Of a stretch of 64,000 nucleotides of DNA, positions 18,693-62,155 are shown one piece after another; positions within the stretch are counted from its first letter, which is position 1; each line of letters opens with the position of its first letter. A program made the translations under genes and the position numbers. This DNA is from Arctopsyche grandis (Eukaryota; Arthropoda; Insecta; Trichoptera; Hydropsychidae): assembly GCF_051622035.1 (NCBI RefSeq), contig NC_135358.1, positions 23,936,501 through 24,000,500 of the forward strand. Reading direction: 5' to 3'. Below the pieces are notes generated by a model. That model searched no databases, had not been told where the DNA came from, and was given only the letters and a program-made list of their open reading frames with translations.

Positions 18693-18899
18693 TTCCTTTC
18701 TCTCTCACGCGGAGACGGACACCGACAGCAAACGACCAACACCAACACCGGCGCGCACTATCGCACCTTCCGCACCTCACCGCACCGCACCGCTCGCTTG
18801 ACACGTCCACCGGTGACAACCACGACTTAACACCTCTATTCGCGGCCATCTACACCCAACACCACGTTGATGTTACACCTACATTTCAGCAAATACATG

Positions 18900-20017
18900 T
18901 TTTAATTGTCATTGCCGGAGCAGGCTGACTTGGGGACCGGTGAATCCAAAACACCTGGGCCCCTTCCATGAAAGGGGCTCCGAGAAATAAATAAAAAAGA
19001 AAGAAAAAAATGGATTTTGTATACAAAACTTTCACGATTACCGTCTCAGGTACCTGTGGTTCGAAAGGTAAACGGACTACTAGTCATATGTGAACCAGGT
19101 TGACACGACAACTCGTTCACAGATTTTCCGTAAACCGAGGATGCGCTCCAGGCATTACGTATGCGGCCATCTCTTTCTCATCCCGTCTGTTCACCAAGAT
19201 CTCGTTTATTATGCCATTACGTATGCAGCCATCTCTTTCGCAAACCGTCTTTTCACCGATAACAGACGGTCTGTGAAAGAGCTGGCTGCATACGTAATGG
19301 CATAGTAAACGAGATCTTGGTGTACAGACGGGGTGAGAAAGAGATGGCCGTATACGTAATGCCTGGAGCGCATCCTCGGTTTACGGAAAATCTGTGAACT
19401 AGTTGTCAGGTTACCGTGAACCAGTCACAGGACAACCGGTCGCTCTAGATCGGTCACACGTGATCACCCGTCACACTAAAACTGGTCACACCCTAAAATC
19501 GGTCGCGAGAAAACTGGTTGACTGATTTTTGGGTGTGACCAGTTTTCTCGTGACCAGTTTTAGTGTGACGGATTCACATTGACCGGTTCACATTTGACTA
19601 GTAATCACCGAACCGGTTCGAAAACCAGGATCGACCGGCTTGTTTCTCTTGCAGAAAATATTTTGATAATTAAATAGCAAATTACTAATTAATTGTCATT
19701 GCTGGAGCCGGCTGACTTGGGGACCGGTGAATCCAAAGCACCTGGGCTTGTTTCTCTTGCAGAAAATATTTTGATAATTAAATAGCAAATTACTAATTAA
19801 TTGTCATTGCTGGAGCCGGCTGACTTGGGGACCGGTGAATCCAAAGCACCTGGGCCCCTTCCATGAAAGGGGCTCTGAGAAATAAATAAAAAAAAAATGG
19901 ATTTTGTATACAAAACTTTCATGATTACCGTCTCAGGTACCTGTTGTTTCGAAAACAAAAAACGACCGGCTTGTTTCTCTTGCAGAAAATATTTTGCAAA
20001 TTAAATAGCAAATTGCT
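18900..20017. repeat. Composite repeat, three related units with a 108-bp tandem duplication
   Basis: GCTGACTTGGGGACCGG occurs at 18924, 19711 and 19819; the last two are 108 bp apart within a perfect tandem copy (about 19638-19745 and 19746-19853). The block TTTCTCTTGCAGAAAATATT occurs three times, and the stretch ending CTCAGGTACCTGT occurs twice. One unit is interrupted by the fold-back element at 19067. Family unknown; no protein is encoded. Confidence 0.75.
19067..19614. mobile_element. Fold-back element with large palindrome and 9-bp target duplication
   Basis: It starts GGTAAACGGACTACTAGTC and ends GACTAGTAATCACCGAACC. About 19122-19406 is a near-perfect palindrome of two roughly 140-bp arms. 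The flanks are GGTTCGAAA on both sides. The uninterrupted target is visible about 880 bp away (TGTTTCGAAAAC near 19948), so the insertion boundaries are clear. Ends resemble the short elements at 20027, 21929, 47197 and 53639. Confidence 0.85.
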
Positions 20018-21918: not shown

Positions 21919-22063
21919 GGCGGTAAATGGTAAACGAATTATTGGGCAAATTGCGATCGCGCACACGACAATCGTTGCCACAAAAATCGCGAATGCGGAA
22001 TATCTGTTACTCGACTTCTCATTAATACAATAATTCACTTGGGTTCCTTTTGATTGATGGAGT

Positions 22064-22957
22064 TGTAGGAATCTCGTCGTCGTCATCGTCATCGAAACCT
22101 TCGAGAATATTCCGCAACAACAAAATACATCGAGCGGAACAGCATCAAGCATTCCAGAAAATACTACGCCTCGACGAAAGCAAATTCCTCTTGTACGCAT
22201 CAACAACTAAATGCTCGTACGACCACTTCCATCAAGCATTCCAGAAAATACTACGCCTCGACGAAAGCAAATTCCTCTTGTACGCATCAACAACTAAAAG
22301 CTCGTACGACCACTTTCATCAAGCATTCCAGAAAATACTACGCCTCGACGAAAGCAAATTCCTCTTGTACGCATCAACAACTAAATGCTCGTACGCATCA
22401 ATAACCACTTCCATCAAGCGTTCCAGAAAATTCTACGCCTCGACAAAAGTGCATTCCTTTCTTACGCATCAACAAACCACCACCATCGGTCAGGCGATTC
22501 CAGAAACACTATAAAAGGAGGTACAACCCAAACAACCCCAGTCGACCCACAGCAGCAAGAGTCGACCCACGGCAGCAAGCGTCGACATACAGCTCCTGAC
22601 CAGCCACCACTACACTACGCGGACTTGGAAGATCAACCAGCCGGACGAGCCAGCAACACACTGCCGTATCCAGAGACCTTCCGAACATAGCCGAACACCG
22701 AGCCAGCAACACACTGCCGCATCCAGAGACCTTCTGAACATAGCTGAATGCCGAGCCAGCGACACTCTACCATATCCAGAGACCGCTGAACGACATACTT
22801 TTACCAACAATTAACCATACTTGTGTATACGTGTTACTACCAAATAAATACCATATTAAACATATAGTTGTATTAATACCGAACACAGACGAATCTGTCT
22901 ACAATACATGGCGGACTGGTGGTGAAGAAGACCTTCACAATAAGACTAGTTCCCATA
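22064..22957 (+). repeat. Left LTR
   Basis: Contains about four tandem copies of an 87-bp unit (CAAGCATTCCAGAAAATAC at 22146, 22233 and 22320, with a diverged copy at 22416). A TATAAAAGG box follows near 22510 and a polyadenylation signal near 22843. Confidence 0.88.
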
Positions 22958-24580
22958 CCTGGTGACCCCCGACTAAGAGCCACGCAGCCTTCAAAGCAGT
23001 CAACAAAGCAGCCCACAGCGCAGTCAACTTCCAACCTCACCATACCTGGTGACCCCCGACTAAGAGCCACGCAGCCTTCAAAGCAGTCAACAAAGCAGCC
23101 CACAGCGCAGTCAACTTCCAACCTCACCATAACTGGTGACCCCCGACTAAGAGCCACGCAGCCTTCAAAGCAGTCAACAAAGCAGCCCACAGCGCAGTCA
23201 ACTTCCAACCTCACCATAACTGGTGACCCCCGACTAAGAACCACGCAGCCTTCATAGCAGCCCACATCGCAGCCTTCATAGCAGCCCACATCGCAGCCTT
23301 CATAGCAGCCCACATTGCAGCCTACATAGCAGTCCACATCGCAGCCTACATAGCAGCCCACATTGCAGCCTACATAGCAGCCCACATCGCAGCCAACATA
23401 GCAGCCCACATCGCAGCCTACATAGCAGCCCACATCGCAGCCTACATAGCAGCCCACATCGCAGCCTACATAGCAACCGCAGACTTCATAGCAACCGCAG
23501 ACTTCACGCAACCGCAGCCTTCAACGCAGTCTACAACGCAACCCTCAACGCAGACTTCAAACGCAGTCCGCTACATGTTCCCACAACTAGTGACCATGTC
23601 AAACAACTCCGCAGCTTTCGCCACAACAAGACGCAACCCGGAGACAACAACCAAATGGATCCACTACTGTTGATCCGCCAGCACCGCTCATCACACCTTC
23701 GATGAGTCATCACCTCGATGAGCCCATGCAGGACGCCGCAGCCTGCACAACAGCACCGTCCAGACCGACACAAACCTTCACTACCATTGTAACGACCGAA
23801 ACAGTAACATGGTGTGAAAGTACATATGGACCAGCTACCAACACAACCCGCTGTTGAGTCAACCGACTCCAGCACAACCAACGAAGACCAGCACTCAACG
23901 CACTTCGTAAACCAACGTTCTTCACGCAAGACCCGCTGCCGAGACAACTAACTCCAGCACAACCAACGAAGACCAGCACTCAACGCACTTCGTCAACCAA
24001 CGTTCTTCACGCAAGATCCGCTGTCGAGACAACTAACTCCAGCACAACCAACGAAGACCAGCACTCAACGCACTTCGTCAACCAACGTTCTTCACGCAAG
24101 ATCCGCTGTCGAGACAACTAACTCCAGCACAACCAACGAAGACCAGCACTCAACGCACTTCGTCAACCAACGTTCTTCACGCAAGATCCGCTGTCGAGAC
24201 AACTAACTCCAGCACAACCAACGAAGACCAGCACTCAACGCACTTCGTCAACCAACGTTCTTCACGCAAGACCCGCTGCCGAGACAACTAACTCCAGCAC
24301 AACCAGCAAAACAGTCACGCGAATGACTCCACGCAGAACACAGCAGCCTGCACAACAGCACCATCCAAGCCATCACAAACCTTCACTACCAACGCAGCTC
24401 GCCCAAAATAAGCAACCTGGTAGAGAACAAGACTTGGACCGGCATGCAACACAAGACCCGCTGTTGAGACAACTTTCTCCAGCACAACCGGACGAACAAC
24501 GACGCCATCGAGTCAATAGACTCCAACACATCAAGATTCCCACAAAATCACACACATCGCTAACACTCACCGGAGAGCCA
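22958..24580 (+). repeat. LTR element interior made of minisatellites
   Basis: Three blocks: an 87-bp unit (starts 22958, 23045, 23132 and 23219), each beginning with the CTGGTGACCCCCGAC primer-binding-like sequence; about ten 24-bp units of GCAGCCTACATAGCAGCCCA type (about 23250-23480); and about five 85-bp units with CTTCGTCAACCAACGTTC (about 23880-24300). Long open frames here are by-products of the repeats. Confidence 0.85.
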
Positions 24581-25474
24581 TGTAGGAATCTCGTCGTCGT
24601 CATCGTCATCGAAACCTTCGAGAATATTCCGCAACAACAAAATACATCGAGCGGAACAGCATCAAGCATTCCAGAAAATACTACGCCTCGACGAAAGCAA
24701 ATTCCTCTTGTACGCATCAACAACTAAATGCTCGTACGACCACTTCCATCAAGCATTCCAGAAAATACTACGCCTCGACGAAAGCAAATTCCTCTTGTAC
24801 GCATCAACAACTAAAAGCTCGTACGACCACTTTCATCAAGCATTCCAGAAAATACTACGCCTCGACGAAAGCAAATTCCTCTTGTACGCATCAACAACTA
24901 AATGCTCGTACGCATCAATAACCACTTCCATCAAGCGTTCCAGAAAATTCTACGCCTCGACAAAAGTGCATTCCTTTCTTACGCATCAACAAACCACCAC
25001 CATCGGTCAGGCGATTCCAGAAACACTATAAAAGGAGGTACAACCCAAACAACCCCAGTCGACCCACAGCAGCAAGAGTCGACCCACGGCAGCAAGCGTC
25101 GACATACAGCTCCTGACCAGCCACCACTACACTACGCGGACTTGGAAGATCAACCAGCCGGACGAGCCAGCAACACACTGCCGTATCCAGAGACCTTCCG
25201 AACATAGCCGAACACCGAGCCAGCAACACACTGCCGCATCCAGAGACCTTCTGAACATAGCTGAATGCCGAGCCAGCGACACTCTACCATATCCAGAGAC
25301 CGCTGAACGACATACTTTTACCAACAATTAACCATACTTGTGTATACGTGTTACTACCAAATAAATACCATATTAAACATATAGTTGTATTAATACCGAA
25401 CACAGACGAATCTGTCTACAATACATGGCGGACTGGTGGTGAAGAAGACCTTCACAATAAGACTAGTTCCCATA
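24581..25474 (+). repeat. Right LTR
   Basis: Same length as the left LTR, at a constant offset of 2517 bp and apparently identical. It is followed directly by GAGT, the target duplication, and then by the second half of the host element. Confidence 0.88.
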
Positions 25475-26401: not shown

Positions 26402-29400
26402 ATGATATCAAGAAAAGGACAGAAAGCAATCAAAGAGGGAGTCGTCGGCAAATATGTCAAAAAAGACACCCCGCCGGAAATGCCCAGTTAATAGTTTTTA
26501 GCTATTTTACCCCTTAGAATTTTTAAGTATATATACATTATTTTGAATTTTTTCAAAAATTCTCAGTTATAAACGTATGGACCACAGAAAGAAACAGAAG
26601 GTCTCGCAGTCAACAACCGCAGAATGTAGTTGACAATAATGTAGTCGCCACATCTCAACCTGAGCATAAATTTGGTAAGGGCGAGGGTCTCGGAGGACAC
26701 GCTGGAAAATATACACCCAGTGAATCCGTGCCCAATTTAGCACACAGGTAATTTTATTTTAAATTTTGATCTAGCAAAATAAATATTTAATTTTCACAAA
26801 AAAAACAAAAGAGTATCAATGCTATCCACCATATGTATTTATATTAAATTAACTATGAAAATAAAAGTATGTCAAATACAAAGTTTAATATATTAAAAAG
26901 TTTCATAGTTTGTTGATTTTTATTTTAGATTTGCTAGTCTTTCTACCAGTGGTGATTCGTCATCCAACTTATCAACGCCATATTACAGCACCGACTTGAC
27001 ACCGGTTAAATAAATAATTTTTGAATACATTGAAACTGGACGTATTTGAGTGCTACATATATAGTATTTTATATTGCCTTACAGAGTTCACATTTATTGC
27101 CTTTCGACGGAGAGGGTGGAAGTTTCAGTAGACAACCAAGTAGACAAAGACATCCGATACGTCAACAAACTGAAGATCCAATTTATCAAAATCAACAACA
27201 AGTAAAACAGCAACAGCACAAAATGCTACTGAGAGAGAATAGTAGCGATTCTCATAATAAAGTCACACCTACTTCTTCTACGCACCATATTACGCCGACT
27301 TCATCTCAACTACACTTGTCTACGTCTTCTGTCAATGTCTCACACCATTCTATACCCATTGGGCAAATTCAACAAGGTACATATACATATATCCGTATGT
27401 GCTACTACGGCATACGCTTTGCGATCATTAACAAATACACTTCACCAACTCTTTTATACATGACAAGGCAATCTCAGTATTTATCAGAGCTGTGGTGTTT
27501 ACTGAGAAAATTTACCGACTCCGACTCCAACTTGAACGATTTAGGTGGACTTTTCTTGCCAACGTAAGCAATTATTAGTAGTGAAAATAATAACGATTTT
27601 CAAAATAAAAAAAATTAAAGGAATTAAAAAATCGACAGTAACCCAATTTATTGAATTATTGGTAATAAAGTAGGTATAAATAATAGTATATATGTATTCA
27701 CAGTATTTGTGTATGAATTTCATACACAAACAAATCAATTTAATAAAAAAAGTATATAAGACAGAGGAAATATCAATTCATCGATTTTATTTTATAATGT
27801 TATTTAAATTCATGATTTTTATAAAGAAATTATTAAATTTCTATTAGTCGATCTACTTCAATAAAATTAGAGACTAGTTAACGCATACTGTAATACTATA
27901 ATTGAAAAAAAATAAGAAAAAGGAGTCAGTTGATTTTTTACGACTGCTTGAAATGCTCCAACTCTAGGACTACGACTTCGACTTCACAGGCCGGGTATTT
28001 ACAATAAACATGAATATTGGGTTAAATAATATACATACATATATTACATTTGTAAAACTACTAGCTGGAACTATGTTTGTATATTCAACCCATATTTGAC
28101 AGTTCTATGTATATTGTGAACTTAAATTGTACAAACTTCATGAGATTTTTATCAATCTCAATAAAAATGCAATATAACGTTGTTCATCATGTTCCTTAAA
28201 ATCACTTTGTTTAATCTTGAAATGGAGCAATTTGTTTTAATTATATTTATGTTTGTAGGATATACCAACAATGCAGCATCAGTGCCTATTTATTCCAATG
28301 TTATGACCGGACCAACGGGAATGACCTATGGCGAACAATTGATCCATAATGCAACCCACAGTCCAGCATTAATGAATACTAATCAAAGTAAACACCTCAT
28401 TACTCATATCGTGATATCTCAATTTTTGTATTACTATAGTGCTGTTTTTATTCTTATGTGATAATAGCGGATGATGGAGAACTACCACTTCCGCCTGGCT
28501 GGTCAGTGGATTTTACTTTGCGAGGCAGAAAATATTACATGGATCATAATACGCAAACTACGCACTGGACACATCCTCTCGAATCCGTCCCTTCGGGCTG
28601 GCAAAGAGTCCACAGTCCACAACAGGGCATTTACTATTTCAAGTACATATTTGATTTGTACAAATCTATAATTCGAAACTTAATTTTTATGTAAAATTGT
28701 ATTATTTTGTTAAAGTGAAATGACCCGACAAGCATCGTATGCCCATCCGTGCCTTGTCGGAGGATGTTATTTATTCGGTCCACTTACGGGTGCCTTAGTT
28801 CCACCTTATTTATTAGAAGAAATTCCTCCATGGTTAATTGTATATTCAAAAGGTAATAATATACTACAAAATTATTTTTCACGTTTTTATTATATACAAC
28901 TCACAAAAATATAATGTCTTTTATGTATCATGTTCTTGGATCATAAAGGTGATAATGCTACCCAGAACAAAAGTTTTCTAGGGATTTTTTTATTAATTTA
29001 AAGTTCCTTTAGCTTTTTTCTACTAGTTTTTGCAAAACCAGTGTGCTCTGATAGAATATGAAAACAGAAACAAACTGCAATGATCTTTGCAAAATGCAAA
29101 CTTCTTTGGGTTATGGGGTTGATAAATTGTCACTGACTTACACATGCATGTGTATAATAAAAAATAATACAAAGCATTTATTATATTTTAGCGTCCCAAG
29201 AATTGGATCATAAATTACGATGGGGTATGTTCAGACTGAGTGATTTGGATTGTTACTCGGCAATGTTAACCAGACTCTACAAACAAGAATTACAATTAAT
29301 AGTTATGAAATATGAGCAATACAGGTGTGATATGTTGTTTATTTAAATTTTTTTTTTACATATGTACTTTAAAATAGCTTTCATGCTTATATATTATCTC

Positions 29401-39652: not shown

Positions 39653-41878
39653 ATGCCTGAAGAAACTATTCAGGATGTGGAGACCTTCGCTTTCCAAGCT
39701 GAGATCGCTCAGCTCATGTCCCTCATCATCAACACTTTCTACTCGAACAAGGAAGTGTTCTTGAGAGAATTGATCTCAAATTCTTCTGATGTAAGTTTGC
39801 TCAATTTTCACATTCACGATTTTTATTTACTCTCAAAATGCGTTTACTAATTTTTTTTTTGTTTTCTGAAGGCTTTAGATAAAATCCGTTATGAATCCCT
39901 CACCGACGCTTCACGTTTGGACAGCGGCAAAGACCTCTTTGTCAAGATCATTCCAAACAAGAGCGAAGGAACACTCACCATCATCGATACCGGTATTGGT
40001 ATGACTAAAGCCGATTTGGTAAACAATCTCGGTACCATTGCCAAGTCTGGAACAAAGGCTTTTATGGAAGCTCTCCAAGCTGGCGCTGATATTAGCATGA
40101 TTGGTCAATTTGGTGTTGGTTTCTACTCGGCTTACTTGGTTGCCGATAGGGTCAAGGTTGTCTCAAAGCACAATGACGATGAACAATATATTTGGCAATC
40201 GTCCGCTGGAGGATCTTTCACCGTTGGGGTTGATCATGGCGAACCTTTGGGCAGAGGCACAAAAATCGTCCTCAACATCAAAGAAGATCAATTAGATTAC
40301 TTGGAGGAATCTAAGATCAAAGAAATCGTCAAGAAGCACTCTCAATTCATCGGATATCCGATCAAGCTTCTAGTGGAGAAAGAACGCGAGACTGAAATGT
40401 CTGACGATGAAGAAGAAGAAAAGAAGGCTGACGAGGAAGAAGACCCATCCAAACCAAAGGTTGAAGATATTGGAGAAGATGAAGAGGAAGATAAGGAAAA
40501 GAAGAAGAAGAAGAAGACCATCAAGGAGAAGTATACTGAAGATGAGGAATTGAACAAAACCAAACCAATCTGGACTCGTAATGCTGATGATATCACACGC
40601 GAGGAGTATGGAGAATTCTACAAATCTCTCAGCAATGATTGGGAAGACCATTTAGCCGTCAAACACTTCTCTGTTGAAGGTCAATTGGAGTTCCGAGCTC
40701 TCCTCTTCGTCCCCAGAAGAGTTCCATTTGATCTGTTCGAAAATAAGAAACGCAAGAATAACATTAAACTGTACGTCAGGAGAGTATTCATCATGGATAA
40801 CTGTGAAGAGCTCATCCCAGAATATTTGAACTTCATGAAGGGAGTAGTTGACAGCGAAGATTTACCTTTAAATATTTCTCGTGAAATGTTACAACAAAAC
40901 AAGATTTTGAAAGTCATCAGGAAGAATCTAGTAAAGAAATGCATGGAACTCTTTGATGAATTGGCTGAAGACAAAGACGAATATAAAAAATTCTACGCTC
41001 AGTTCAGCAAGAATCTGAAACTCGGTATTCATGAAGACTCTCAAAATAGAAGCAAATTGGCTGAACTTTTACGATTCAACACATCTGCATCCGGAGATGA
41101 ATATTGCTCATTGAAGGAGTATGCTACCCGAATGAAGGCCAACCAGAAACACATCTACTTCATCACCGGTGAAAACAAAGAACAGGTAGCCAACTCTTCC
41201 TTTGTAGAAAGGGTCAAGAAACGTGGTTTCGAAGTTATCTACATGACTGAACCCATTGATGAATATGTTGTCCAACAAATGAAAGAATATGATGGAAAAC
41301 AACTCGTTTCTGTTACCAAAGAAGGACTTGAACTTCCCGAGGATGATGAAGAAAAGAAGAAGCGCGAGGAAGACAAGACCAAATTCGAAGGTCTTTGCAA
41401 AGTAATGAAAAATATCCTTGAGAACAAAGTAGAGAAGGTAGTAGTAAGTAACAGACTTGTGGAGTCTCCGTGCTGTATCGTTACATCTCAGTATGGCTGG
41501 ACCGCTAACATGGAACGTATCATGAAGGCACAGGCTCTTCGCGACAGTTCTACAATGGGTTACATGACTGCCAAGAAACATTTGGAAGTCAACCCCGACC
41601 ACTCCATCATCGAAACTCTCCGTCAGAAGGCTGACGCTGATAAGAATGACAAGGCTGTAAAGGACTTGGTCATCTTACTGTTCGAGACTGCTCTCTTGTC
41701 TTCTGGTTTCACATTGGATGAACCTCAAGTACACGCTGCCCGTATTTACAGAATGATCAAATTAGGTTTAGGTATCGACGAAGACGAGCCCATGATGGCC
41801 GAAGAAGTTTCCACCAGCGAAGTACCACCTCTAGAGGGAGATGCTGAGGATGCGTCCAGAATGGAAGAAGTCGATTAA
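39653..41878 (+). CDS. Hsp90: Heat shock protein 90, cytosolic (Hsp83)
   Basis: ATP-dependent dimeric chaperone that matures kinases, steroid receptors and other clients in the cytosol. Two coding exons (39653-39790 and 39872-41878) give 714 aa, matching insect Hsp83 (about 717). The N-terminal ATPase domain shows [25 protein letters not shown], interrupted by the intron after SSD, then [15 protein letters not shown] and [16 protein letters not shown] charged Glu/Lys linker spans about residues 215-265. The middle domain has [19 protein letters not shown] and NISREMLQQ. The C-terminal dimer region ends in MEEVD, the TPR-cochaperone docking signal that marks the cytosolic form. The start follows the acceptor of the leader intron directly. 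AATAAA is at 42024. The coding intron of 81 bp is GT-AG and in phase. Confidence 0.98.
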
Positions 41879-43549: not shown

Positions 43550-46500
43550 TTAAGAATTATTTGTTTTCAAAATAGATTTTCCATGTTCGGTTATACAAGC
43601 TTCAACAGTTGCGTAGATTGTAAGCAACCGTCTTTCCATTGCCTGCAAATGGAGTTCCGTCAAAACTGGCCCGCCAAGTTCTTCTGATAATAATTCAGAT
43701 AATGTTGTGGTTAAATATCCTCCTGATAAAAGCTTTAATCTTTTCCATGTGGACAACCTCAATCTGAAGAAAAAACATGTTTTATTTTGATACCAAAAAT
43801 TACTTAATTCATTCTTTATATTATTTGATAACTTACATGCAACATTGATACAAAGGAGCCAATATATCGTTGAAATCTTTGTGAGGGTTTCCCAGACCTT
43901 TGCCATTGTCCAACAAGATTACCCGGTCTTTTATTGTCTCGTAATGGTGTCGGTCACCGTTTTGGAGTAAAAAGTCAAATATGGATGCATCAATTAAATC
44001 CAACAATCGTTGCATTGTCAATACTTTCTTCACTTTCCTAATTAATAATGTAGATTTAAATAGTAAGAGCGTGTTTGTTATTAGTATATATGTTACAGTT
44101 GAAGAGTATCTTCCAGTTGTAATATATTTTGACTAGTTGGTATATATTTCATCTAACCTGGTACCAACTACCTTTATGGTTGAACTAGTGTTGTAAAATT
44201 CTCGGTAATAATCTTTTGGAGAATATTCTCGAGAATAATCTCCAAACCGAGAATTTTCGAGAATATTCTTTTTTAGAGCTAGAAGGGTTCTATACTATTC
44301 CGTTGCAATTTCAAAAAATGGATAGATTCATGTGAAAGGTATGATGAGGGAAGACACGAATAAAATTAATTAACTAATGCAAAAACCTAATTAATAATAA
44401 TTTTTAACATTTTGCATTTCATATGTACAGAGAGAGGGTAAGCAAATGTGATTTTTGAGCAGTTGGCGAAACACAACAGAAATGTTACGCCTATTATGTT
44501 GTTTGTGTTAAAAGATTTAACATAGATCTGGAATAAAAAAAAACCAACTTACATTTTAATGTTAATGGTAACTCGCATTGTTTATTTACCAATTTTTATC
44601 GTTTCTAAAGTTAATAAATTTACGAGTTCATATTATGTAATGTGTTTTAAAAGTACGCACTGATGTGAAATAACAATGAAAATACCCAAAATCATACAAA
44701 ATCTGTGCTAAAAAATTTCTAAAAAAAGTAAACTGATAAATTCATGTGAACGTTAAATATGAGAGAGGAAATGAATAAAATATTTTTTTACGATCTTGTG
44801 TGTTAAGTTTAAAAGAATGATTAAAGCAAGAAAAAAGAAAATTCTCGGCGAATAACGAGAATATTCTCGACTTACAACGCTAGGTTGAACTGTATTTTCA
44901 GTTGTAATATATTTTGACTAGTTGAATATATCCCATCTAACCCACGTAAGTTGACTCATATGACGAATTACATTTCAACTGGTCAAAATATATAATACTT
45001 CAACTAGAAGTTGGAAGCTACCAGGAAGGATGGAGAGATTAGGTTTTCGTGAAAATTTCACTCGACTAGTAAATTGAGTTGGAAAGTCACATTTTGGTTT
45101 TGAACACATTCTTAGAGTTATCGTAATATGGCACTCATTCCCTTTATTCGTAATACCTAGCAAATATTAGCACATTATTGAATTCTAAAGCATCTGTAAA
45201 AACATCAGAGCTGTCAAAAACAGTTACAATGGCGCACAGTTACAATAGCTGTCAATTACAATTGGCGCACATTGTTGAAAGTGTATTTGCGTTTGTTGAT
45301 ACATAATTTACTAGTTGAATTGTATTCGAATATTATTTTATTATTTTTGTTAATTTATAACTGGTAACCCCGATGCGCCTTTCTGGCCAGAAACATTGTA
45401 CATTTGATACAAGTATTATTATACAAAGTAAATACATATCAATTAACAGCCACAAACACATTTATGGCCAAATTTGTAAATTTGAGGCATTTTATACTAT
45501 TCAGCAAAAATCGAGATTGCTGAAAACTCGAGATTTGCTAGAAAATGGGTAAGGTTGCCAATTTGTTGGAACCGTTTCAATGAAAATCAGATAAATTGGC
45601 AAATTGTGATAGGAAACGATCGACTTAGAGTCACATATCCAAGGTTTGGCCAGCAGATACTAGAAGGATTTGAACCCGTGACAACTTTGTTCAAAGCATT
45701 ATAAGCTAACCACTATTCTGCTGAATATGAATGTTGGAATATATTACAACTGAAAATACACTTCGACTGTAACATATATACATAGATAAATGGTTGTGAG
45801 CCTTTATCGAACAAAAATATCGGTAACATTAAAAGCCATGTGTTCTCGACCACCATTATTGATCATAAAAATGATAATTACGTGCAATAGTTAGGATTGA
45901 CTTCCCAATCGGCTTGTCGTCGATCATCGTAAGTTCTTTGCCAGGGTGATCGATACTTTTGAAAACGATAATCAACAGATAAAATCATTGCTCCTTCGAT
46001 CTCATCGTTTTCATCACTACACACGGTTTCATTGCGTTTGCAGTAAAAACATTTTCCAAACATACACATAGTTCCATTATCTGAAATACACATAGGTATT
46101 TGAAAATTTTTGTTGTGAATATAAAATACAAACGATATATGGTTGATACCTGTTTGAAACATTGTCTCTTTGAGTTCTGGAGTTGCATTATTCCATACCT
46201 CGGTTTTAATGTTTAACCGTCTAATGATTGCTAGAGGAGCCCATCGAATATCTAAAACGACTGCTAAATAGAAAGCTACGACTTCTGCGTTATGTCTATC
46301 TTTTCCAGAATATACGGAACCTCGAATAACTTCATTCCTTTTGTACCACTGCGGTTTGAAGAAAGCAGTTCCATTTCCCTGGAAAAAATACATAAACCTT
46401 AAAAAATTTGCGTGCAAATGATTGATTTAAGAAATTATGTACTCGTACTTCAAGTCCTAATAAAAGTTTGAATTGAGTGCCCTTGCGTGAGTTTTCGGCC

Positions 46501-47318: not shown

Positions 47319-47357
47319 ATTTTCTTCTGAAATCTACTTCTAGTGTTAGTTGCTAGT

Positions 47358-47547
47358 GGTTCGGTGATTACTGGTCACAAAGTCACTAAAATATCTATAA
47401 CGGAACATCTGGCAGCCGAAAAGTCCATAATACTAATGATAACCATCATACTAACGAGAACTTGAGTGCCAAATATTGTGTAGTCGCGATTTTCATTGCA
47501 AAAATTGTATTTGTGACCACCGCAATGTGACGAATAGTCTAATTACC
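47358..47547. mobile_element. Short non-autonomous element (190-bp family), copy 2
   Basis: Same ends as the 33438 copy, flanked by GTTGCTAGT and GTTTCTAGT (8 of 9 match). Located about 300 bp upstream of the FAM20 start codon. Confidence 0.88.
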
Positions 47548-48537: not shown

Positions 48538-48856
48538 TGTATACATATGTATTTGCAGTTAAATTTTAAATAAAAATGGCCAACAACTACATACCAGGTC
48601 AATTACTGTGGTCTCTCCCCCCCTTTTCGTTAGAAATTCATTCATTTTTTATTTTCGATTATGTACATTCACACAAGTTTTAGTACACAAAATCATTTGT
48701 TGAATTTTTTAATAAGACGCATAAGAAAATCATTTCATTTCAAAAAGCTATATTTCGTTTCAGAATTATTGTTATTTAAATTTTTTAATTTTACCTGAAT
48801 TCGATTGAAAAATTCGTTTGTTTTTTTTAAATAAAAATTTAATAATGTTTTATGAC

Positions 48857-48870
48857 TTGTTTATAGCAAC
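48857..48870 (+). promoter_or_regulatory. Candidate RFX X-box upstream of the first CFAP276-like gene
   Basis: CTTGTTTATAGCAACC contains a perfect RFX half-site (AGCAAC) and a degenerate left half. The same motif precedes the second gene and, diverged, the third. RFX factors switch on ciliary genes. It lies about 120 bp before the start codon. Confidence 0.5.
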
Positions 48871-48987
48871 CACGAACGAATGAAAAGGTATTGTTAGCAA
48901 AAATACTACTTTGAAAGAACACTAGATTTTTTCCTACTTGCATTCCTAGTTTGTTGATAAGACAGATAATAGCACAGAAAATAAAAT

Positions 48988-49582
48988 ATGGATAGTAACT
49001 TCGCTAACAGTGACACTAATAAAATAAAAAAATCGATTTGTATGAAAAAATTAAAATTCGTTCATGAAAGGTTGATTAATAACCGCACGATATCAAATTT
49101 AAATAAATGCAATTTTACAAAATCTGAGAGGTAATTTAATAGTTAATAATCTAGAATAATCAAATAGTACGATTTCAAAACATTTATTTAATTTTCTTTT
49201 TTTACGTTAGTTACGACAGTTTGGATCTTTCATTGTCATCAACGTACAATCACTGCAGAGAAGCATTTCCTGATAAGGTAGATTACTACATTCAAACGGA
49301 AACAAAATTAAAAGGAGTTCGGATTCCTGTGGTACAGCCCGAATTTAAAAAGGACTCGATTGTAAATATAATATTTTTTTTTTAATATTATATCGATTAA
49401 ATTGCGTAAAATTAAATATGTAATATTATTTATAAAAAAATTAGGGGCATCCAATAAAGTTTGGTGGAATTTATGAGCGTATTTCACCACATACTGTAAA
49501 AATGATGAATCCATCCCATTACTCGGCAGCAACCAGATCAGGATTTTCTAGAAAAGATGATGGCATGATTTATTATTACTGA
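48988..49582 (+). CDS. CFAP276-like axonemal protein, copy A
   Basis: Three exons (48988-49130, 49211-49361, 49445-49582) give 143 aa. The conserved order is HERLINNRTISNLNKC, then YDSLDLSLSSTYNHCREAFPD, GHPIKFGGIYE and SAATRSGFSRKDDGMIYYY. From memory this parallels human CFAP276/C1orf194 (RLNSTPTITSMRR, DFRLAALYNHH, SPHTAATNGGYSRKKDGGFF; 169 aa), a small protein bound inside axonemal doublet microtubules. Identical intron phases and exon sizes in the two following genes show tandem duplication. This copy has the longest N terminus, with a Lys-rich extension. AATAAA lies at 49629. The family call rests on short motif matches; the gene structure is secure. Confidence 0.8.
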
Positions 49583-49763
49583 ATATATTACTATATATTA
49601 AAAGTTATACTAGTTCTTATCTGTACTCAATAAATCAAAATTATTTTAAAATACATTGGTACTTAATTAATATCCTAATGTACGGCATTCAACTATAGGC
49701 TAATTGTAAATAAACTATAGAACCTTGACCAATCAATCACTTTTAAATTCTTAATCTCTCAAT

Positions 49764-49905
49764 GGCTACGTCCACACTACCGATATTTACGAAATTTTCC
49801 ATATCTAGTTCCCATATTGCAACCTGTGGTTGCTATTTAGGAACTGGTTATGGAAAATTTCGTAAATATCGGGTGTACATAGATATCGGTAGTGTGGACG
49901 TAGCC
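49764..49905. mobile_element. Palindromic MITE, 142 bp
   Basis: Nearly the whole element is an inverted repeat (GGCTACGTCCACACTACCGA and its complement at the right end), flanked by AAT on both sides, a probable 3-bp duplication. It sits between copies A and B of the CFAP276-like genes. Confidence 0.75.
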
Positions 49906-50073
49906 AATGAATGAGTATTGTGTATCAATTTTTATGATTAAATGTTTTATTAGACTCGAAATAAAGGTCTACATTTCAAAAGATTGGATGTTTCAAAAGT
50001 GCATAGTTCCTAAATGTTTTGGCCATAAAAATATGTGAGCTTAATAACTTTCACATCCTTGGTTTCTATAATC

Positions 50074-50087
50074 GTGTTTATAGCAAC
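50074..50087 (+). promoter_or_regulatory. Candidate RFX X-box upstream of the second CFAP276-like gene
   Basis: GTGTTTATAGCAAC agrees at 13 of 14 positions with the nematode X-box consensus GTHNYYATRRNAAC (from memory). It is about 65 bp before the chosen start codon. Confidence 0.55.
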
Positions 50088-50150
50088 CACGACAACGTAA
50101 ATAAATATTTATTTCGTTGTGTACAACTGAATTACCAAAATTGTTTCATC

Positions 50151-50961
50151 ATGAAAAATTTGAAAAATAAAACCATTCACGAAAAGAAATTTCCATCAGT
50201 TTATCAAAGGTTATATGAAAATCGGACGGTATCAAGTTTAAGGAAATGCAATTTCATTAAAACAGAAAGGTATACATACATATGTAATTTAAAACCACCA
50301 CCCCAGCTATTTAGAGAATTCTTTATTGAATCATAAAATAATATTTAAATATGTATTATTACAATTGTTAGATGTAATCACCTAGATTTGGCATTATCTT
50401 CAACATACAATCACTGTAAAGAGTCGTTCCCCGACAGACAAGACTATTACATTCAAAAAGAAACAAAATTAGGAGTTTGGAGTCCTCGCTGCTTCGTAGC
50501 CAAGCAATCAAAATTTAAAGACAGCGACATGGTAATTCAAAAAGGGTAATTGGACTATTCGTCACATTGGGGTGGTCACAAAGACAATTTTTGCCATGAA
50601 AATCGCGAATACACAATATTTGGCACTCAAGTTCTCGTTACTATGATAGTTATCGTTAGTATTATGGACTTTTCGGCTGCCAGATGTTCCGTTATAGAGA
50701 TTTTAGTGACTTTGTGACGAGTAATTTGTGACCAGTAATCACCGAACCTTCAAAAAGATATTAAATTATTTTTCATATCACATTTAATGATTTAAATATT
50801 TTATAATTCATAATTTTTAGAGACATCCAATAAAATTTGGTGGAATCCCCGAATACATATCACCATACAGTGTGAAGCTTATGAACTCATCACATCATTC
50901 TGCAGCGACGGCTCCAGGTTTTTCAAGAAAATTTAAAGGTGGAATGATATATTATTATTAA
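50151..50961 (+). CDS. CFAP276-like axonemal protein, copy B
   Basis: Three exons (50151-50269, 50372-50531, 50821-50961) give 139 aa. It keeps YQRLYENRTVSSLRKC, HLDLALSSTYNHCKESFPD, HPIKFGGIPE and SAATAPGFSRKFKGGMIYYY. The frame is open further upstream to 50019, but that stretch includes the X-box-like motif and is not conserved in the sister copies, so I chose the ATG at 50151. Intron 2 contains a 204-bp transposon copy with intact flanking splice sites. AATAAA follows at about 51001. Function is inferred as for copy A. Confidence 0.8.
50545..50748. mobile_element. Short non-autonomous element (190-bp family), copy 3
   Basis: Starts GGTAATTGGACTATTCGTCAC and ends AATCACCGAACC, in the opposite orientation to copies 1 and 2, flanked by perfect TTCAAAAAG. 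A small internal duplication makes it 204 bp. Located inside intron 2 of CFAP276-like copy B. Confidence 0.9.
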
Positions 50962-51193
50962 AAACATGTATAAATATTTAAAGTTAATTTATCTTTTTCT
51001 AATAAATAAAACAAAATTGTTACAAAACAACATAAAACGTGAAAAATGTTTTACTTAATACATGCAAATATTGTCAGTAATCTAATACCATTTAAATAAA
51101 AAAATAAATAAGAATTTTAAGTAGTTCTTGTTGTCGTGTCTTAGACCAAAATAAATATATTTAATCGATGAAGAGGTAAGGTTTCTACCGACT

Positions 51194-51209
51194 TATTTAT
51201 AACAGCAAC
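51194..51209 (+). promoter_or_regulatory. Diverged X-box-like site upstream of the third CFAP276-like gene
   Basis: TATTTATAACAGCAACC retains the AGCAAC half-site at a position equivalent to the sites before copies A and B, 40 bp before the start codon. Confidence 0.35.
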
Positions 51210-51248
51210 CGTGAGAAGGCATACATTGACTTATAGTCCAAAAACGAA

Positions 51249-51843
51249 ATGGAACGGATCTATGAAAGATTAAACGATAATCGCACTATATCAAATATGA
51301 GAAGATGTCGTTTTATTGAGAATGAAAGGTAACATCATCTACATATGTACATATGCACATATTGTTATATGTGTACATACATATATTCTGTGGTGTAATA
51401 ATTAATTATTAATTAAATTATAACCGTGTGTTTTCAATGTTAGATATGATCGCTTAGATTTAGCGTTATCGTCAACTTATAATCACTGCAGAGAACTTTT
51501 TCCTGACGAAAAGGACTATTATCTACAGAAGGAGACAAAATCAAAAGGCGTTTGGGGTCCTTCCGGTTTTATTTTCAAGCAACCACAGACGAAAGACAAT
51601 AGCATGGTAAGCAGAGCAATTAAATAATATTGTTAGCAGCTTAAAGTACACAATACCTACATATGTAAGTATATTACAAGTATTTTGCATTGCTACAATC
51701 TTTAGGGACATCCGATAAAGTATGGGGGAGTACCTGAACGTCGTTCACCACACAATGTGAAACTTATGAATTCTTCACATCATTCTGCTAAAACCGCTCC
51801 TGGATATTCGAGACCATTTGGTGGCACACTCTATTATTATTAA
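51249..51843 (+). CDS. CFAP276-like axonemal protein, copy C
   Basis: Three exons (51249-51328, 51444-51606, 51706-51843) give 126 aa. An in-frame TAG at 51234 fixes the start, so this copy is the shortest and begins MERIYERLNDNRTISNMRRC. It continues YDRLDLALSSTYNHCRELFPD, an unbroken KGVWGP segment, GHPIKYGGVPE and SAKTAPGYSRPFGGTLYYY. The Lys in SAKT and Pro in SRPF differ from copies A and B. AATAAA is at 51917. The exon structure and phases (2, 0) equal those of the sister genes. Confidence 0.82.
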
Positions 51844-53638: not shown

Positions 53639-53828
53639 GGTAATTGGACTATTCGTCACATTGGGGTGGTCACAAAGACAATTTTTGCCATGAAAATCGC
53701 GAATACACAATATTTGGCACTCAAGTTCTCGTTACTATGATAGTTATCGTTAGTATTATGGACTTTTCGGCTGCCAGATGTTCCGTTATAGAGATTTTAG
53801 TGAATTTGTGACCAGTAATCACCGAACC
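53639..53828. mobile_element. Short non-autonomous element (190-bp family), copy 4
   Basis: Nearly identical to copy 3 but without its internal duplication, flanked by perfect AAAATCGAT. It lies about 335 bp upstream of the SRSF2-like start codon, against the GC-rich leader region. Confidence 0.92.
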
Positions 53829-53849: not shown

Positions 53850-54163
53850 ATGGTCGTGTTAGGCGCGGTTAGGAGTCGCGTGGCGCGGACGCGGGGTGGG
53901 AAAGGGAAGGAGAGGGGGGGGGGGTGTGTGTGTGAAGAGGGGGGGGGGAGCCAACGTCGAGCGGGTCGAGAGCGCTGCGTGCGTTTCCCGTTCCGGCGAT
54001 CGCTGAGTGCGGTCGTTCATCGGCGGGTCGGACGCCATCATCGACGTGCGCGTTGCAGCGTGCGCTTTAGTCTGCTAGTCTGGCGTCTCCCGGCCCCCGG
54101 GCCGCCAAAGGAAGCCAGAGCCAGAGCCAGAGCCAGAGCCAAAGCCAGAGCCAGAGCCAGAAC
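53850..54163 (+). promoter_or_regulatory. GC-rich promoter and leader of the SRSF2-like gene
   Basis: An abrupt change to GC-rich, CpG-rich sequence with G runs (53912-53950). Just before the ATG there are about nine AGCCAG hexamer copies. It fits a housekeeping promoter and 5' UTR; no TATA box seen. Confidence 0.6.
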
Positions 54164-56033
54164 ATGAGCTACGGCCGGCCGCCGCCGCGCATCGAGGGCA
54201 TGGTCTCGCTCAAGGTCGACAACCTGACGTACCGCACCACGCCCGAGGACTTGCGGCGCGTGTTCGAGCGCTGCGGCGAGGTGGGCGACATCTACATCCC
54301 GCGCGACCGCTTCTCGCGCGAGTCCCGCGGCTTCGCCTTCGTGCGCTTCTACGACAAGCGCGACGCCGAGGACGCGCTCGACGCCATGGACGGTCGGCTG
54401 CTCGACGGCCGCGAGTTGCGCGTGCAGATGGCTCGCTACGGCCGCCCCACCTCGCCTTACCGCGGCAACCGCTACACCCGACAGCCCCGACGCAGGTACG
54501 CGGCCGCCATCTTTTATTGCTGTTTTGCTCCCCTCTCCCCTCGCCCGAAAGACGCGTGGCGGCTATTGATTCCATTCATTATGTCCTACTACGCATTTTA
54601 TTGTTGTCGTTGGCCCCAAACGATTTTCCTTCGACACGTTCGTTGAAGGTTCGTTGTTGTTGCACGGGAGCTTGTTCGAAGATTCGATCGAAATTTCACC
54701 CATGAAAGTGGTACCAAAGTAGCAAAAATTTGGTCCTAATAGCCCCTAATTTTAACCCTCTGAGCCGGTCAAATCCCCCCCCCCCCTCCCCGCCGCCGTA
54801 TGGCACATTTAAAATTGATAGATTTCTATTGAATTACGTTCTATATCGCGATGGTTGAGACACTTTTCTAAATAAAAATGAATGATTTTAAAATGTTTTC
54901 TTCCGAACGCTAGCTTTATGTTGGAACTGTTGAATTGCTTGGCCGATCAGGAAAATGTTTGATGCGTAGCTAATGACCATCTAAAACTATTTTTATTAAA
55001 AATAAAATGGCGGCACTTTCCTGTTTGGAAGAGTCATGTTAAAACAATTGAATAAAATAATTCATTCATTTATATATTAATTATAACTTTGATTGGCTAC
55101 GAAAATCTCTGACCTACTGTTTCCATGAATTCAAACGAATAAGACTTTCAATTCTTTCGTCTTGTAGGCACTTTGAATTATTAATTATATAGAACCCATT
55201 TCGGTATTCTCCAATGTTGCAAAGAATTGACGAGGAAGTTCTCGGCTGGCGTTGTATAGTGAACGAGCTCTCGTCATTTTCGGAGATTAATTTACAAATT
55301 AGATTTCTCTTTAGTTGCTCTGGACAATAGGAAAGTACATGATTGGTGCTATTACATTTTTTTTTTAAATAGTCCTATGTTTCTGCTGAACATATATGGT
55401 TCCAAAGAGAGAAAAATATATAAAATAAAAATGGCAACACTGTCGAACAGATGTGTGCATATTAACGTTGCTACCCGAAGGCAGTTTGAAGATAATTCAC
55501 CAAGCCAATCCAATATTGGCCTCGTGTAATTGGATGTTCCAAGATCAATGTTGGCTTGGATTACACTGACGTGAGTGAATGTCCGCAAACTGCATGATCC
55601 GACAGATTAAAAAATTATATTAATTTATTTTTAAAATGTATCTACAGTTGGTTTCGAAACTTGAAAACAATATGCCATATAACTTCAAAAACAAAGTTCT
55701 GATAATAGTATTTAATATTATATAATAATAATAGCATACAAATTATTTTGTAGTTTTTATTGCATCCGGAATTTCTCATAGTAGTTGTGCAAATTCAATA
55801 AAGCACATTGTATGATTTTTTCTTTTTTGGTTAATGATTGTAGGTCCAATTCTAGGTCGCGCTCTCGCTCGCGGTCTCGAAGGCGCTCCCGCTCCAGATC
55901 TCGCTCCAAGAAGCGGTCGTATTCCCGTTCGAGATCTCGCTCCCGATCGGACTCAAAGAGCAGCCGTGGTCGCTCCAGATCCCGCTCTGCCAGCCGTCGC
56001 AATTCACGCTCTGGATCTGGTTGTCGTTATTGA
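54164..56033 (+). CDS. SC35: SR splicing factor SRSF2/SC35
   Basis: An SR protein that binds exonic enhancers and promotes spliceosome assembly in the nucleus. Two exons (54164-54495 and 55844-56033) give 173 aa; the GT-AG intron is 1.35 kb. One RRM spans about residues 14-92: [11 protein letters not shown] (RNP2), then [22 protein letters not shown] (RNP1) and [15 protein letters not shown]. The hinge [15 protein letters not shown] joins an RS tail of about 60 residues, [15 protein letters not shown]...[11 protein letters not shown]..., ending GCRY. Exon 1 is extremely GC-rich (third codon positions almost all G/C) while the rest of the window is AT-rich. The RS tail is shorter than in human SRSF2 (221 aa). 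The frame from exon 1 would run into the intron if unspliced. Confidence 0.93.
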
Positions 56034-58990: not shown

Positions 58991-59038
58991 GATTCATTCA
59001 TTATGTTCGGCTAGCGTTAGGCCACACACAGATTACCG

Positions 59039-59982
59039 TGTAGGAATCTCGTCGTCGTCATCGTCATCGAAACCTTCGAGAATATTCCGCAACAACAAAC
59101 TACATTCCCGAAACCCAGACGACATGCACCTGCAGTCGTTATATTAAACTCAGGCGGAACGCCCCTACCAGTCGAGTGGAACCAAAACGGTCGAAACACG
59201 CCGCCACCATTAAAATACATCGAGCGGAAAGGCGCCAAGCATTCCAGAAAATTCGACGCCTCGACGAAAACAAAATTCCTCTCGTACGCGTCAATAACCA
59301 CTTCCATCAAGCATTCCAGAAAATTCGACGCCTCGACGAAAACAAAATTCCTCTCGTACGCGTCAATAACCACTTCCATCAAGCATTCCAGAAAATTCGA
59401 CGCCTCGACGAAAACAAAATTCCTTTCGTACGCGTCAATAACCACTTCCACCAAGCATTCCAAAAACACTATAAAAGGAGGTACAACCCAAACAACGCCA
59501 GTCGACCCACAGCAGCAAGCGTCGACACACAGCAGCAGACCAGTCGACATACAGCTCCTGACCAGCCACCACTACACTACGCGGACTTGGAAGATCAACC
59601 AGCCGGACGAGCCAGCAACACACTGCCGTATCCAGAGACCTTCCGTACATAGCTGAATGCTGAGCCAGCGACACTCTACCATATCCAGAGACCGCTGAAC
59701 GACATACTTTTGCCCACAAATACCATACCTTTGTACAACCATAGGCAAACAATAAAACTCTATAAAACTAGCACAACAGTGTTTCGTTAGGCCGGGATAA
59801 GGTCAACACATCGTACCCCGCCTACATTGGTACTACTCCGACGTGATCTACGCAACCTTCTGATCATCCAACAGCGCTGTCAACACATCGCTACCCCGCC
59901 TACATTGGTGACCCCATCTTTGAACCACACAACAGTGTTTCGTTAGGCCGGGATACGGTCAACACATCGTACCCCGCCTACA
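59039..59982 (+). mobile_element. BEL/Pao-like LTR remnant, related to the 22-kb element
   Basis: It starts with the same TGTAGGAATCTCGTCG as the LTRs at 22 kb and keeps a 72-bp tandem unit (three copies), a TATAAAAGG box and the CGAGCCAGC-type segment. Its 3' part differs and repeats GTTTCGTTAGGCCGGGATA twice. A short stretch TTGGTACTACTCCGACGTG, and again TTGGTGACCCC, resembles the start of a BEL/Pao interior. Perfect ACCG flanks show one insertion event. It looks like a reduced LTR with little interior left, older than the 22-kb element. Confidence 0.72.
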
Positions 59983-60371: not shown

Positions 60372-60790
60372 GCTCACTCGCGGTGGAGCCCCAGCTGAAT
60401 TCTTATTTAAAATACTTTTAGAAATTTAATTGGATGAGAAAACTAATTATATTTCAATTCTTGTAAGATGGTTAATTTAATAGCATTTGATTTAAAATTA
60501 GTAAGTTAATATGTACATAAAATGTTTTTATTCCACACTATAACAAATGTTGAAAATATTTTTGTACGATACAAAATACTTCTTTAGATGAAGGCGGATC
60601 CGAATAATCTGTGGGTTTCTCCACAAAGCATTTTGGTTAAGCTTCCTAGTAACTGACAGGAATAAAACACATTGCTACGATTTTGTTGGGCTTTTGAAGC
60701 TTAAGGCCAAATATTGTTTGACAGTTGTACAGTCGTGTGGCAACACCGCTGACACACGTGCACATAACCTCTTCACTAGAAGACAGCGCG

Positions 60791-62155
60791 ATGTCGTTCT
60801 TCCAAAAGGCGAAGCCTCGCAAAGCCCCTAAGCGAAAATTCGAAGCCAAATCAAAGAAGAGTAAGAAACCTCGACAACCTCAACCGCAGGATGATGACGG
60901 AGAAGAATCTTTGGACAGTGATTTGGAAGCACGAGACTTTCCAGACCGCTCCGATTCGGAAGGTGAGCTGGAAACGGCTCAAGAGAAGAAATTGCGGTTG
61001 GCTCGACTCTACTTAAGCGAAGTAGAACGCGAGGAAAGAGCTAGGAATGGTGAACCAGATGACGGACAAGTTGGAGCACGTCTCCGTGACGATCTACTTT
61101 TACAACAGGGACGACTTCGTAGCGCCAAAGCAGCCCAACTAGGAATACCTGCCCCTTTAGACATTCGTATATTACGAGGTAAGGACTTGCGTTTACCCGT
61201 TACTTGCATGTGTATATCATCGGATGGACAACACCTGTATTCTGGGACAAAATGTTCAGCGATCATACATTGGTCATTAACAGACATGAAGAAAGTGAAC
61301 AGTATACTATATAATAAAGATTCAAAAAAGAATTCGAAATTTGAATGTCACTCTTCACCGATAGCTGCTCTAGCCATAAGCACCGATAACAAATATTTAG
61401 TATCGTGTGAGAACGCCAATGATATTCAAGTATGGGACGCAGCCACTTTAAAGCATTTACACACGTTTCGCGGCCACAGAGATCACGTGACCGATCTCGT
61501 ATTCCGTAAAGACACTCATCAGTTATTCTCTGCCAGTAAGGATAGGTCTGTGAAAGTGTGGTCTTTGGATGAGATGGCATATATTGAAACTGTATTCGGT
61601 CACCAGTCGGCAATTACTTCAATTGATGCACTCTCGAGGGAACGAGCTATAACGGCAGGCGGCCGAGATAACTCAATAAGGATATGGAAAATAGTCGAAG
61701 AGTCTCAATTGATATTCAATGGACATTCCGGCAGTATAGACTGCGTCAGACTGATCAACGAGGAGAATTTTATATCTTGCAGTGACGATGGTTCGATATG
61801 TGTGTGGGGTAATATGAAGAAAAAGGCACTTTGCACAGTGAACAAAGCGCATGGTTCTGAAGACGGACAAGCCAGATGGATAACGTGTGTTGCTGCGTTG
61901 TTAAATTCAGATTTAGTAGCGTCGGGATCTCACGACGGCTTCCTCAGGTTGTGGAGGCTAAAAGAAGGGTTCAGAAGCATCGAGCCAGTAATGGAAATCC
62001 CCATTGCAGGGTTCATTAACTCTATTGTGTTTAGTTTGGATGGAAGTAAATTAATTGTAGGAGTCGGTCAAGAGCACAAGTTGGCGAGATGGTGGAAAGT
62101 GAAAGAGGCAAAAAATGCTGTGTATGTTATACCGTTAACATACAAGTCTAGCTAG
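60791..62155 (+). CDS. Rrp9: RRP9, U3 snoRNP WD40 protein (U3-55K)
   Basis: RRP9 binds box B/C of U3 snoRNA in the nucleolus and is needed for 18S rRNA processing. A single exon of 454 aa (human 475). The N terminus is basic with KKSKKPRQ nuclear-localisation-like runs, then acidic (DDDGEESLDSDLE); the conserved EKKLRLARLYLSEVEREE follows. From about residue 130 on there are WD40 repeats: SAIIHWSL, NDIQVWDAATL, DRSVKVWSLDE, DNSIRIWKI, GSICVWG, HDGFLRLWRL and LARWWKV. The frame is open 66 bp upstream, but the ATG at 60791 (MSFFQKAKPRKAPKRK) matches the family start. AATAAA is at 62480. It has no intron, unlike its neighbours. Confidence 0.95.
   Translation: MSFFQKAKPRKAPKRKFEAKSKKSKKPRQPQPQDDDGEESLDSDLEARDFPDRSDSEGELETAQEKKLRLARLYLSEVEREERARNGEPDDGQVGARLRDDLLLQQGRLRSAKAAQLGIPAPLDIRILRGKDLRLPVTCMCISSDGQHLYSGTKCSAIIHWSLTDMKKVNSILYNKDSKKNSKFECHSSPIAALAISTDNKYLVSCENANDIQVWDAATLKHLHTFRGHRDHVTDLVFRKDTHQLFSASKDRSVKVWSLDEMAYIETVFGHQSAITSIDALSRERAITAGGRDNSIRIWKIVEESQLIFNGHSGSIDCVRLINEENFISCSDDGSICVWGNMKKKALCTVNKAHGSEDGQARWITCVAALLNSDLVASGSHDGFLRLWRLKEGFRSIEPVMEIPIAGFINSIVFSLDGSKLIVGVGQEHKLARWWKVKEAKNAVYVIPLTYKSS

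Follow-up and report, generated by a model that had tools for sequence, protein, structure and literature searches.

A tandem trio of CFAP276-family genes preceded by a Fox motif and an AGCAAC half-site in Arctopsyche grandis

Several sets of axoneme-protein paralogues have been described in other organisms. In trypanosomatids, paralogues of PACRG, CFAP106 and RIB72 are described as dividing by position along the doublet (PMC7617938), and in Tetrahymena multiplied microtubule inner proteins are reported with their copies at different positions (PMC10105768). As far as these accounts describe them, both sets, together with the CFAP299 set of Drosophila, resemble the gene trio reported here in being axoneme-protein paralogues with divergent ends; they differ from it in belonging to other families and in that their position or expression is known, whereas the trio is known from its genes alone. 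Within the family concerned here, CFAP276 (C1orf194, DUF3695), a structural model of the mouse sperm protein places it within the B tubule, where it is attached at the ribbon (PMC10663601). A Chlamydomonas protein, FAP276, shares the name and one table row with CFAP276 (PMC10460401); it is reported to anchor FAP52 once per 16 nm and was called Chlamydomonas-specific by its discoverers (PMC6994238), and a second paper also treats it as species-specific (PMC10105768). We searched the PDB with an animal CFAP276 profile, and FAP276, if a chain of it is among the sequences searched, gave no match at E<=10. Since FAP276 is called Chlamydomonas-specific and gave no profile match, we did not transfer its role to the trio. 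On the regulatory side, a Fox motif and an X box are reported to lie close together in almost all Drosophila fd3F targets, whose X boxes are often good in a single half-site, RGYAAC (PMC3414849).

We analysed a stretch of 64,000 nucleotides of the Arctopsyche grandis genome (C4:23936501-24000500; the genome comprises 189 contigs and 475.7 Mb), referred to below as the window, whose first nucleotide is position 1. At 48988-51843 on the plus strand it holds three intact genes arranged head to tail, with three exons each:

48988..49582, plus strand: gene A, 143 aa, exons 48988-49130, 49211-49361 and 49445-49582 (including the stop)
50151..50961, plus strand: gene B, 139 aa, exons 50151-50269, 50372-50531 and 50821-50961
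51249..51843, plus strand: gene C, 126 aa, exons 51249-51328, 51444-51606 and 51706-51843

All six introns run from GT to AG and their phases are 2 then 0 in every copy, which, with the exon coordinates, confirmed the adjacent trio of common three-exon layout and intron phases described in the initial annotation. Local alignments among the introns of the three copies gave raw scores of 18-24, and an inner Met at residue 19 of gene A is a candidate alternative start. In the protein alignment about 60 columns are invariant across A, B and C, and the most variable parts are the N terminus and the linker ahead of HPIK. The initial annotation had placed the largest differences at the N terminus and before GHPIK; both positions held, with the correction that B reads RHPIK in place of GHPIK.

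Other genes of the window, of which the HSP90-like frame was recognised by eye, are the following:

9304-19000, minus strand: STT3
28440-28694, plus strand: WW-domain protein
39851-41878, plus strand: HSP90-like frame
43550-46426, minus strand: exons of a Fam20C-type kinase
54071-54646, plus strand: RRM protein
60722-62155, plus strand: WD40 protein

Repeats were also found in and around the locus. A repeat of about 180-190 nt occurs as two direct copies that are 99% identical (50545-50725, in intron 2 of B, and 53639-53819) and as an inverted copy at 47357-47547 (94-95% complementary), with the look of a recent mobile element. Between A and B, an inverted repeat with long terminal arms (GGCTACGTCCACACTACCGATAT...) at 49764-49908 is MITE-like. 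Further upstream, two long blocks (22026-22814 and 24564-25331) carry identical open frames, with related frames at 59017-59656, and a tandem array of units of about 85 nt lies between the two blocks (23858-24291).

To assign the family, we searched the three predicted proteins against the Pfam DUF3695 profile (PF12494), and all three exceeded the curated cut-off of 27 bits, with 41.1 (A), 41.0 (B) and 45.9 (C) bits and E-values of 1.6e-10, 1.8e-10 and 5.2e-12 respectively, the matched stretches spanning profile positions 7-75 of 101. With a profile built from the trio, five different sequences of the PDB were matched at E<=0.01 (7ung_q, 7rro_q, 8i7o_N2, 8snb_3R and 9cpc_2E), every one of them CFAP276/C1orf194. 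Gene C alone recovered the same five chains plus one ribosomal protein at E 0.1, and the trio profile widened with two PDB chains again returned only the five CFAP276 chains at E<=10; 18 columns are invariant among the trio and two outgroup chains. These searches support the CFAP276/C1orf194-like identity that had been proposed from the letters of the window together with a profile search against CFAP276 as its check, a search in which the three predicted proteins did match. The likeness to the PDB chains is that of a sequence family over nearly the whole protein: the match of the trio profile starts at chain residues 41-44 and extends through the C terminus, and in the search with C alone residue 5 of C aligns first, with residue 44 of 7ung. 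The PDB chains differ in their N-terminal part, about 40 residues of which have no counterpart in C, and in that the trio consists of three tandem genes. The N termini of A and B are longer than that of C and different. The vertebrate-type N terminus is not defining in Pfam, whose DUF3695 profile A, B and C satisfy.

To our knowledge, CFAP276 is single-copy in vertebrates. Using tblastn, we found no fourth copy in the 64-kb window (best match outside the locus at E 0.38). A genome-wide DUF3695 search scored three candidates, two of them at E<=0.001, which correspond to the second exons of A and C. Exon 2 of B is absent from that list at E<=0.001, so the exon-wise search is not fully sensitive and could miss a diverged extra copy. 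In other collections, 21 genome-contig stretches and 53 viral-contig stretches fitted peptide patterns of the trio, and none was confirmed as a relative. The genome holds one locus of PACRG, one ENKUR match and two CFAP20 loci; tripling is thus not common to these partners. No CFAP276 gene cluster was found in the titles and abstracts of the literature searched (CFAP276, C1orf194, DUF3695), where a mention deeper in the text is possible, and the local tripling of CFAP276 appears to be undescribed, the family itself being known.

Pairwise amino-acid identity among A, B and C is 0.61-0.65 (122-134 codons), and third codon positions are identical at 0.48-0.56. We estimated dN at 0.23-0.30 against dS at 1.9-4.1, which is saturated (NG86, pairwise). 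With dN this low relative to a saturated dS, the duplications are taken to be old and the proteins to be under selective constraint. A tree with three outgroup chains, in which 8snb forms a long branch, placed A, B and C in one clade with a support of 100/100 and left the order within the trio unsettled. Pseudogenes were ruled out by the open frames, the intact splice sites and a dN far below dS, and all three genes probably make protein.

We then examined the sequence before each ATG, where the initial annotation had reported an AGCAAC half-site upstream of each gene, within TTATAGCAAC in A and B and diverged in C. The half-sites were confirmed, and each is accompanied by a Fox motif that the annotation had overlooked:

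48858..48870, plus strand: upstream block of A, TGTTTAT abutting AGCAAC, half-site 123 bp before the ATG
50075..50087, plus strand: upstream block of B, TGTTTAT abutting AGCAAC, 69 bp before the ATG
51194..51209, plus strand: upstream block of C, TATTTAT, a gap of 3 bp, then AGCAAC, 45 bp before the ATG

The Fox motif is RYMAAYA; the blocks carry its reverse, which reads TGTTTAT in both A and B and TATTTAT in C. The annotation had called the element an RFX-type motif, which holds for the half-site (AGCAAC in 3/3 genes) and fails for the full X-box: on neither strand did the 150 bp before A, B or C match any of four published two-sided forms, and the loose form RYYNYYN1-3RRNRAC, with 86 matches in the window, had none in these three 150-bp stretches.

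At 48856 and 50073, A and B agree in 19 of 20 bases, whereas 60 dinucleotide-shuffled pairs reached at most 17, and this likeness persists despite the saturated synonymous sites. Ungapped, the best match of C to A is 16/20, lies at another place and was equalled by 14 of the 60 shuffles, and that of C to B is 14/20, equalled by all 60; neither is above chance, so the membership of C in the block depends on the gapped alignment. There, every copy has TTTATA and GCAACC unchanged, and C has three additional bases between the two; TTATAGCAAC is present in A and B only, C retaining GCAACC preceded by the extra bases. A genome-wide search for the exact 14-mer TGTTTATAGCAACC yielded two sites, those of A and B, the reversed control pattern yielding four.

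The pattern TRTTKRY-N0-4-AGCAAC occurs three times in the window (both strands), every time upstream of A, B or C, and 40 shuffles gave a mean of 0.25 and a maximum of 1. Allowing any orientation, 4 of the 37 AGCAAC sites of the window lie at most 4 bp from a Fox motif, three of them at the trio. The fourth such pair, at 57625, has the opposite orientation and is tied to no gene here. Outside the locus, 0.2% of 150-bp background stretches contain AGCAAC at most 4 bp from a Fox motif and 5.6% contain RGYAAC at most 50 bp from one. All three upstream regions carry RYMAAYA within 50 bp of RGYAAC (being paralogues, they are not independent). These enrichment tests are not independent, given the common ancestry of the copies and a tight pattern that was in part picked after viewing the sequence.

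As described for part of the Drosophila targets, Fd3F/Rfx chordotonal promoters resemble those of the trio in having a Fox motif near a single strong RGYAAC half-site by the gene start (PMC3414849). Measured to the ATG, the criterion of 50 bp from the transcription or translation start used for Fd3F/Rfx targets compares with 45 bp in C, 69 bp in B and 123 bp in A. In order to see how far the pair extends among ciliary genes of this genome, we set the rule that RYMAAYA lie at most 50 bp from RGYAAC, both in the 150 bp before the ATG; PACRG had already been seen beforehand. PACRG, an inner-junction gene on the minus strand (L003, C10), carries TGTTTAC 102 bp and AGCAAC 80 bp before its ATG, 15 bp apart. 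None of the four ciliary genes tested after the rule was set (CFAP20 on C5, CFAP20 on C11, ENKUR and one tektin) had the pair. Among the other ciliary genes whose start could be assigned, it is thus present in 1 of 5, against 5.6% of background stretches. Upstream of ENKUR, GTCGCTATGGAAAT beside GTAAACA resembles an X-box with its last base off and falls outside the rule. For the tektins we obtained 21 exon matches spread over several loci. Four exon loci were looked at, and a start was assigned in L028, which lacks the pair; L022 and L027, apparently internal exons, and L030, which has no Met, were excluded from the count of five. Among these excluded rows, the internal Met of L022 has a single GGTAAC/Fox pair, and in L030 AGCAAC and Fox motifs cluster some 500 bp ahead of the match. 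In control genes of the window, with starts assigned by peptide, the pair was absent in 5 of 6, the sixth being a Met at 27223 that may be internal. The Fox/half-site code is thus suggested for the trio locus and is not extended to the animal generally, given 1/5 other ciliary genes and a 14-mer found only at A and B. In this the genome differs from the Drosophila Fd3F/Rfx code: the pair is missing in 4/5 other ciliary genes, and for the trio the likeness concerns DNA sequence only.

Of the two CFAP20-domain loci, L008 (C11:12466688-12467239) and L009/L010 (C5:8275390-8276197), one has two exons and the other, on C11, holds the whole domain in a single exon; the latter is retrocopy-like and a candidate tissue-specific copy.

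Our preferred reading, to which we give a probability of about 0.6, is an old tandem triplication of CFAP276, kept under constraint and driven by Fox and RFX factors in cells with motile-type axonemes, with products in the B tubule. One CFAP276 gene would have been triplicated in tandem, amino-acid constraint being kept in all copies. A Fox factor of the Fd3F/FoxJ1 kind would act with RFX to switch on the trio in cells building motile-type axonemes, most likely chordotonal neurons (hearing, proprioception) and perhaps sperm too. From their homology to mouse sperm CFAP276, the three products are expected to lie extended on the inner wall of the B tubule, where, by analogy with mammalian structures, they would sit at the doublet ribbon and help to stabilise the doublet. 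With their N termini of unequal length and their differing linkers ahead of HPIK, the copies may be used jointly or in separate axonemes. AlphaFold2 gave a mean pLDDT of 36.4, without a confident model, and decides nothing on mechanism.

The Johnston's organ of male mosquito antennae is very large. A list for Anopheles gambiae places one PF12494 protein under 'Male antennae only' (PMC3839933, Table 1; N=1, P 0.0384), and the same list includes a CFAP20-domain (DUF667) protein and an axonemal dynein light chain. The initial annotation had suggested specialised sperm or sensory axoneme subunits; based on the Fox partner and this antennal listing, we lean towards a role of the trio in sensory axonemes over one in sperm only, an assignment that would carry over from other insects.

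Alternatively, the copies could be partitioned by cell type, some serving sperm flagella and others sensory neurons, with the block ancestral and used by part of the copies. The four CFAP299 paralogues of Drosophila, reported with distinct tissue expression (PMC10425847), offer a precedent, and the three extra bases within the block of C and the differing N-terminal lengths of A, B and C are consistent with such a split; the retention of both the Fox motif and AGCAAC in 3/3 copies argues against it, and we consider it possible but somewhat unlikely. Redundancy or dosage, in which three interchangeable proteins supply more of one abundant part, is unlikely. It agrees with the invariant columns of the trio, and mouse Cfap276 is given as one of the testis genes that spermatogenesis does not require (PMC12653000), but the copies are old (saturated dS) and still differ in their N termini and linkers, and purely redundant copies tend not to persist for such a time.

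We regard as equally doubtful that the block is a core-promoter element (a TATA-like TTTATA and a start region) unrelated to Fox or RFX: TTTATA is invariant in 3/3 copies at 45-123 bp before the ATG, the pair is absent from 4/5 other ciliary genes and the full X-box is absent upstream of A, B and C, but the invariant columns continue through GCAACC, past any TATA box, and PACRG carries AGCAAC with a Fox motif 15 bp off. A further reading, which we consider very improbable, is that CFAP276 was tripled to equip the axonemes of hearing and touch neurons with all three versions at once, each taking a separate place or partner along the inside of the B tubule; the mechanosensory axoneme would then have a patterned inner wall that sperm and vertebrate cilia do not share.

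The trio is a new local expansion of a known family, the expansion of other axoneme families being already known. Compact and sharing a Fox/half-X-box block, it would offer an animal test case of whether such copies split by tissue, split by position or add dose, and it points attention to sensory over sperm axonemes.
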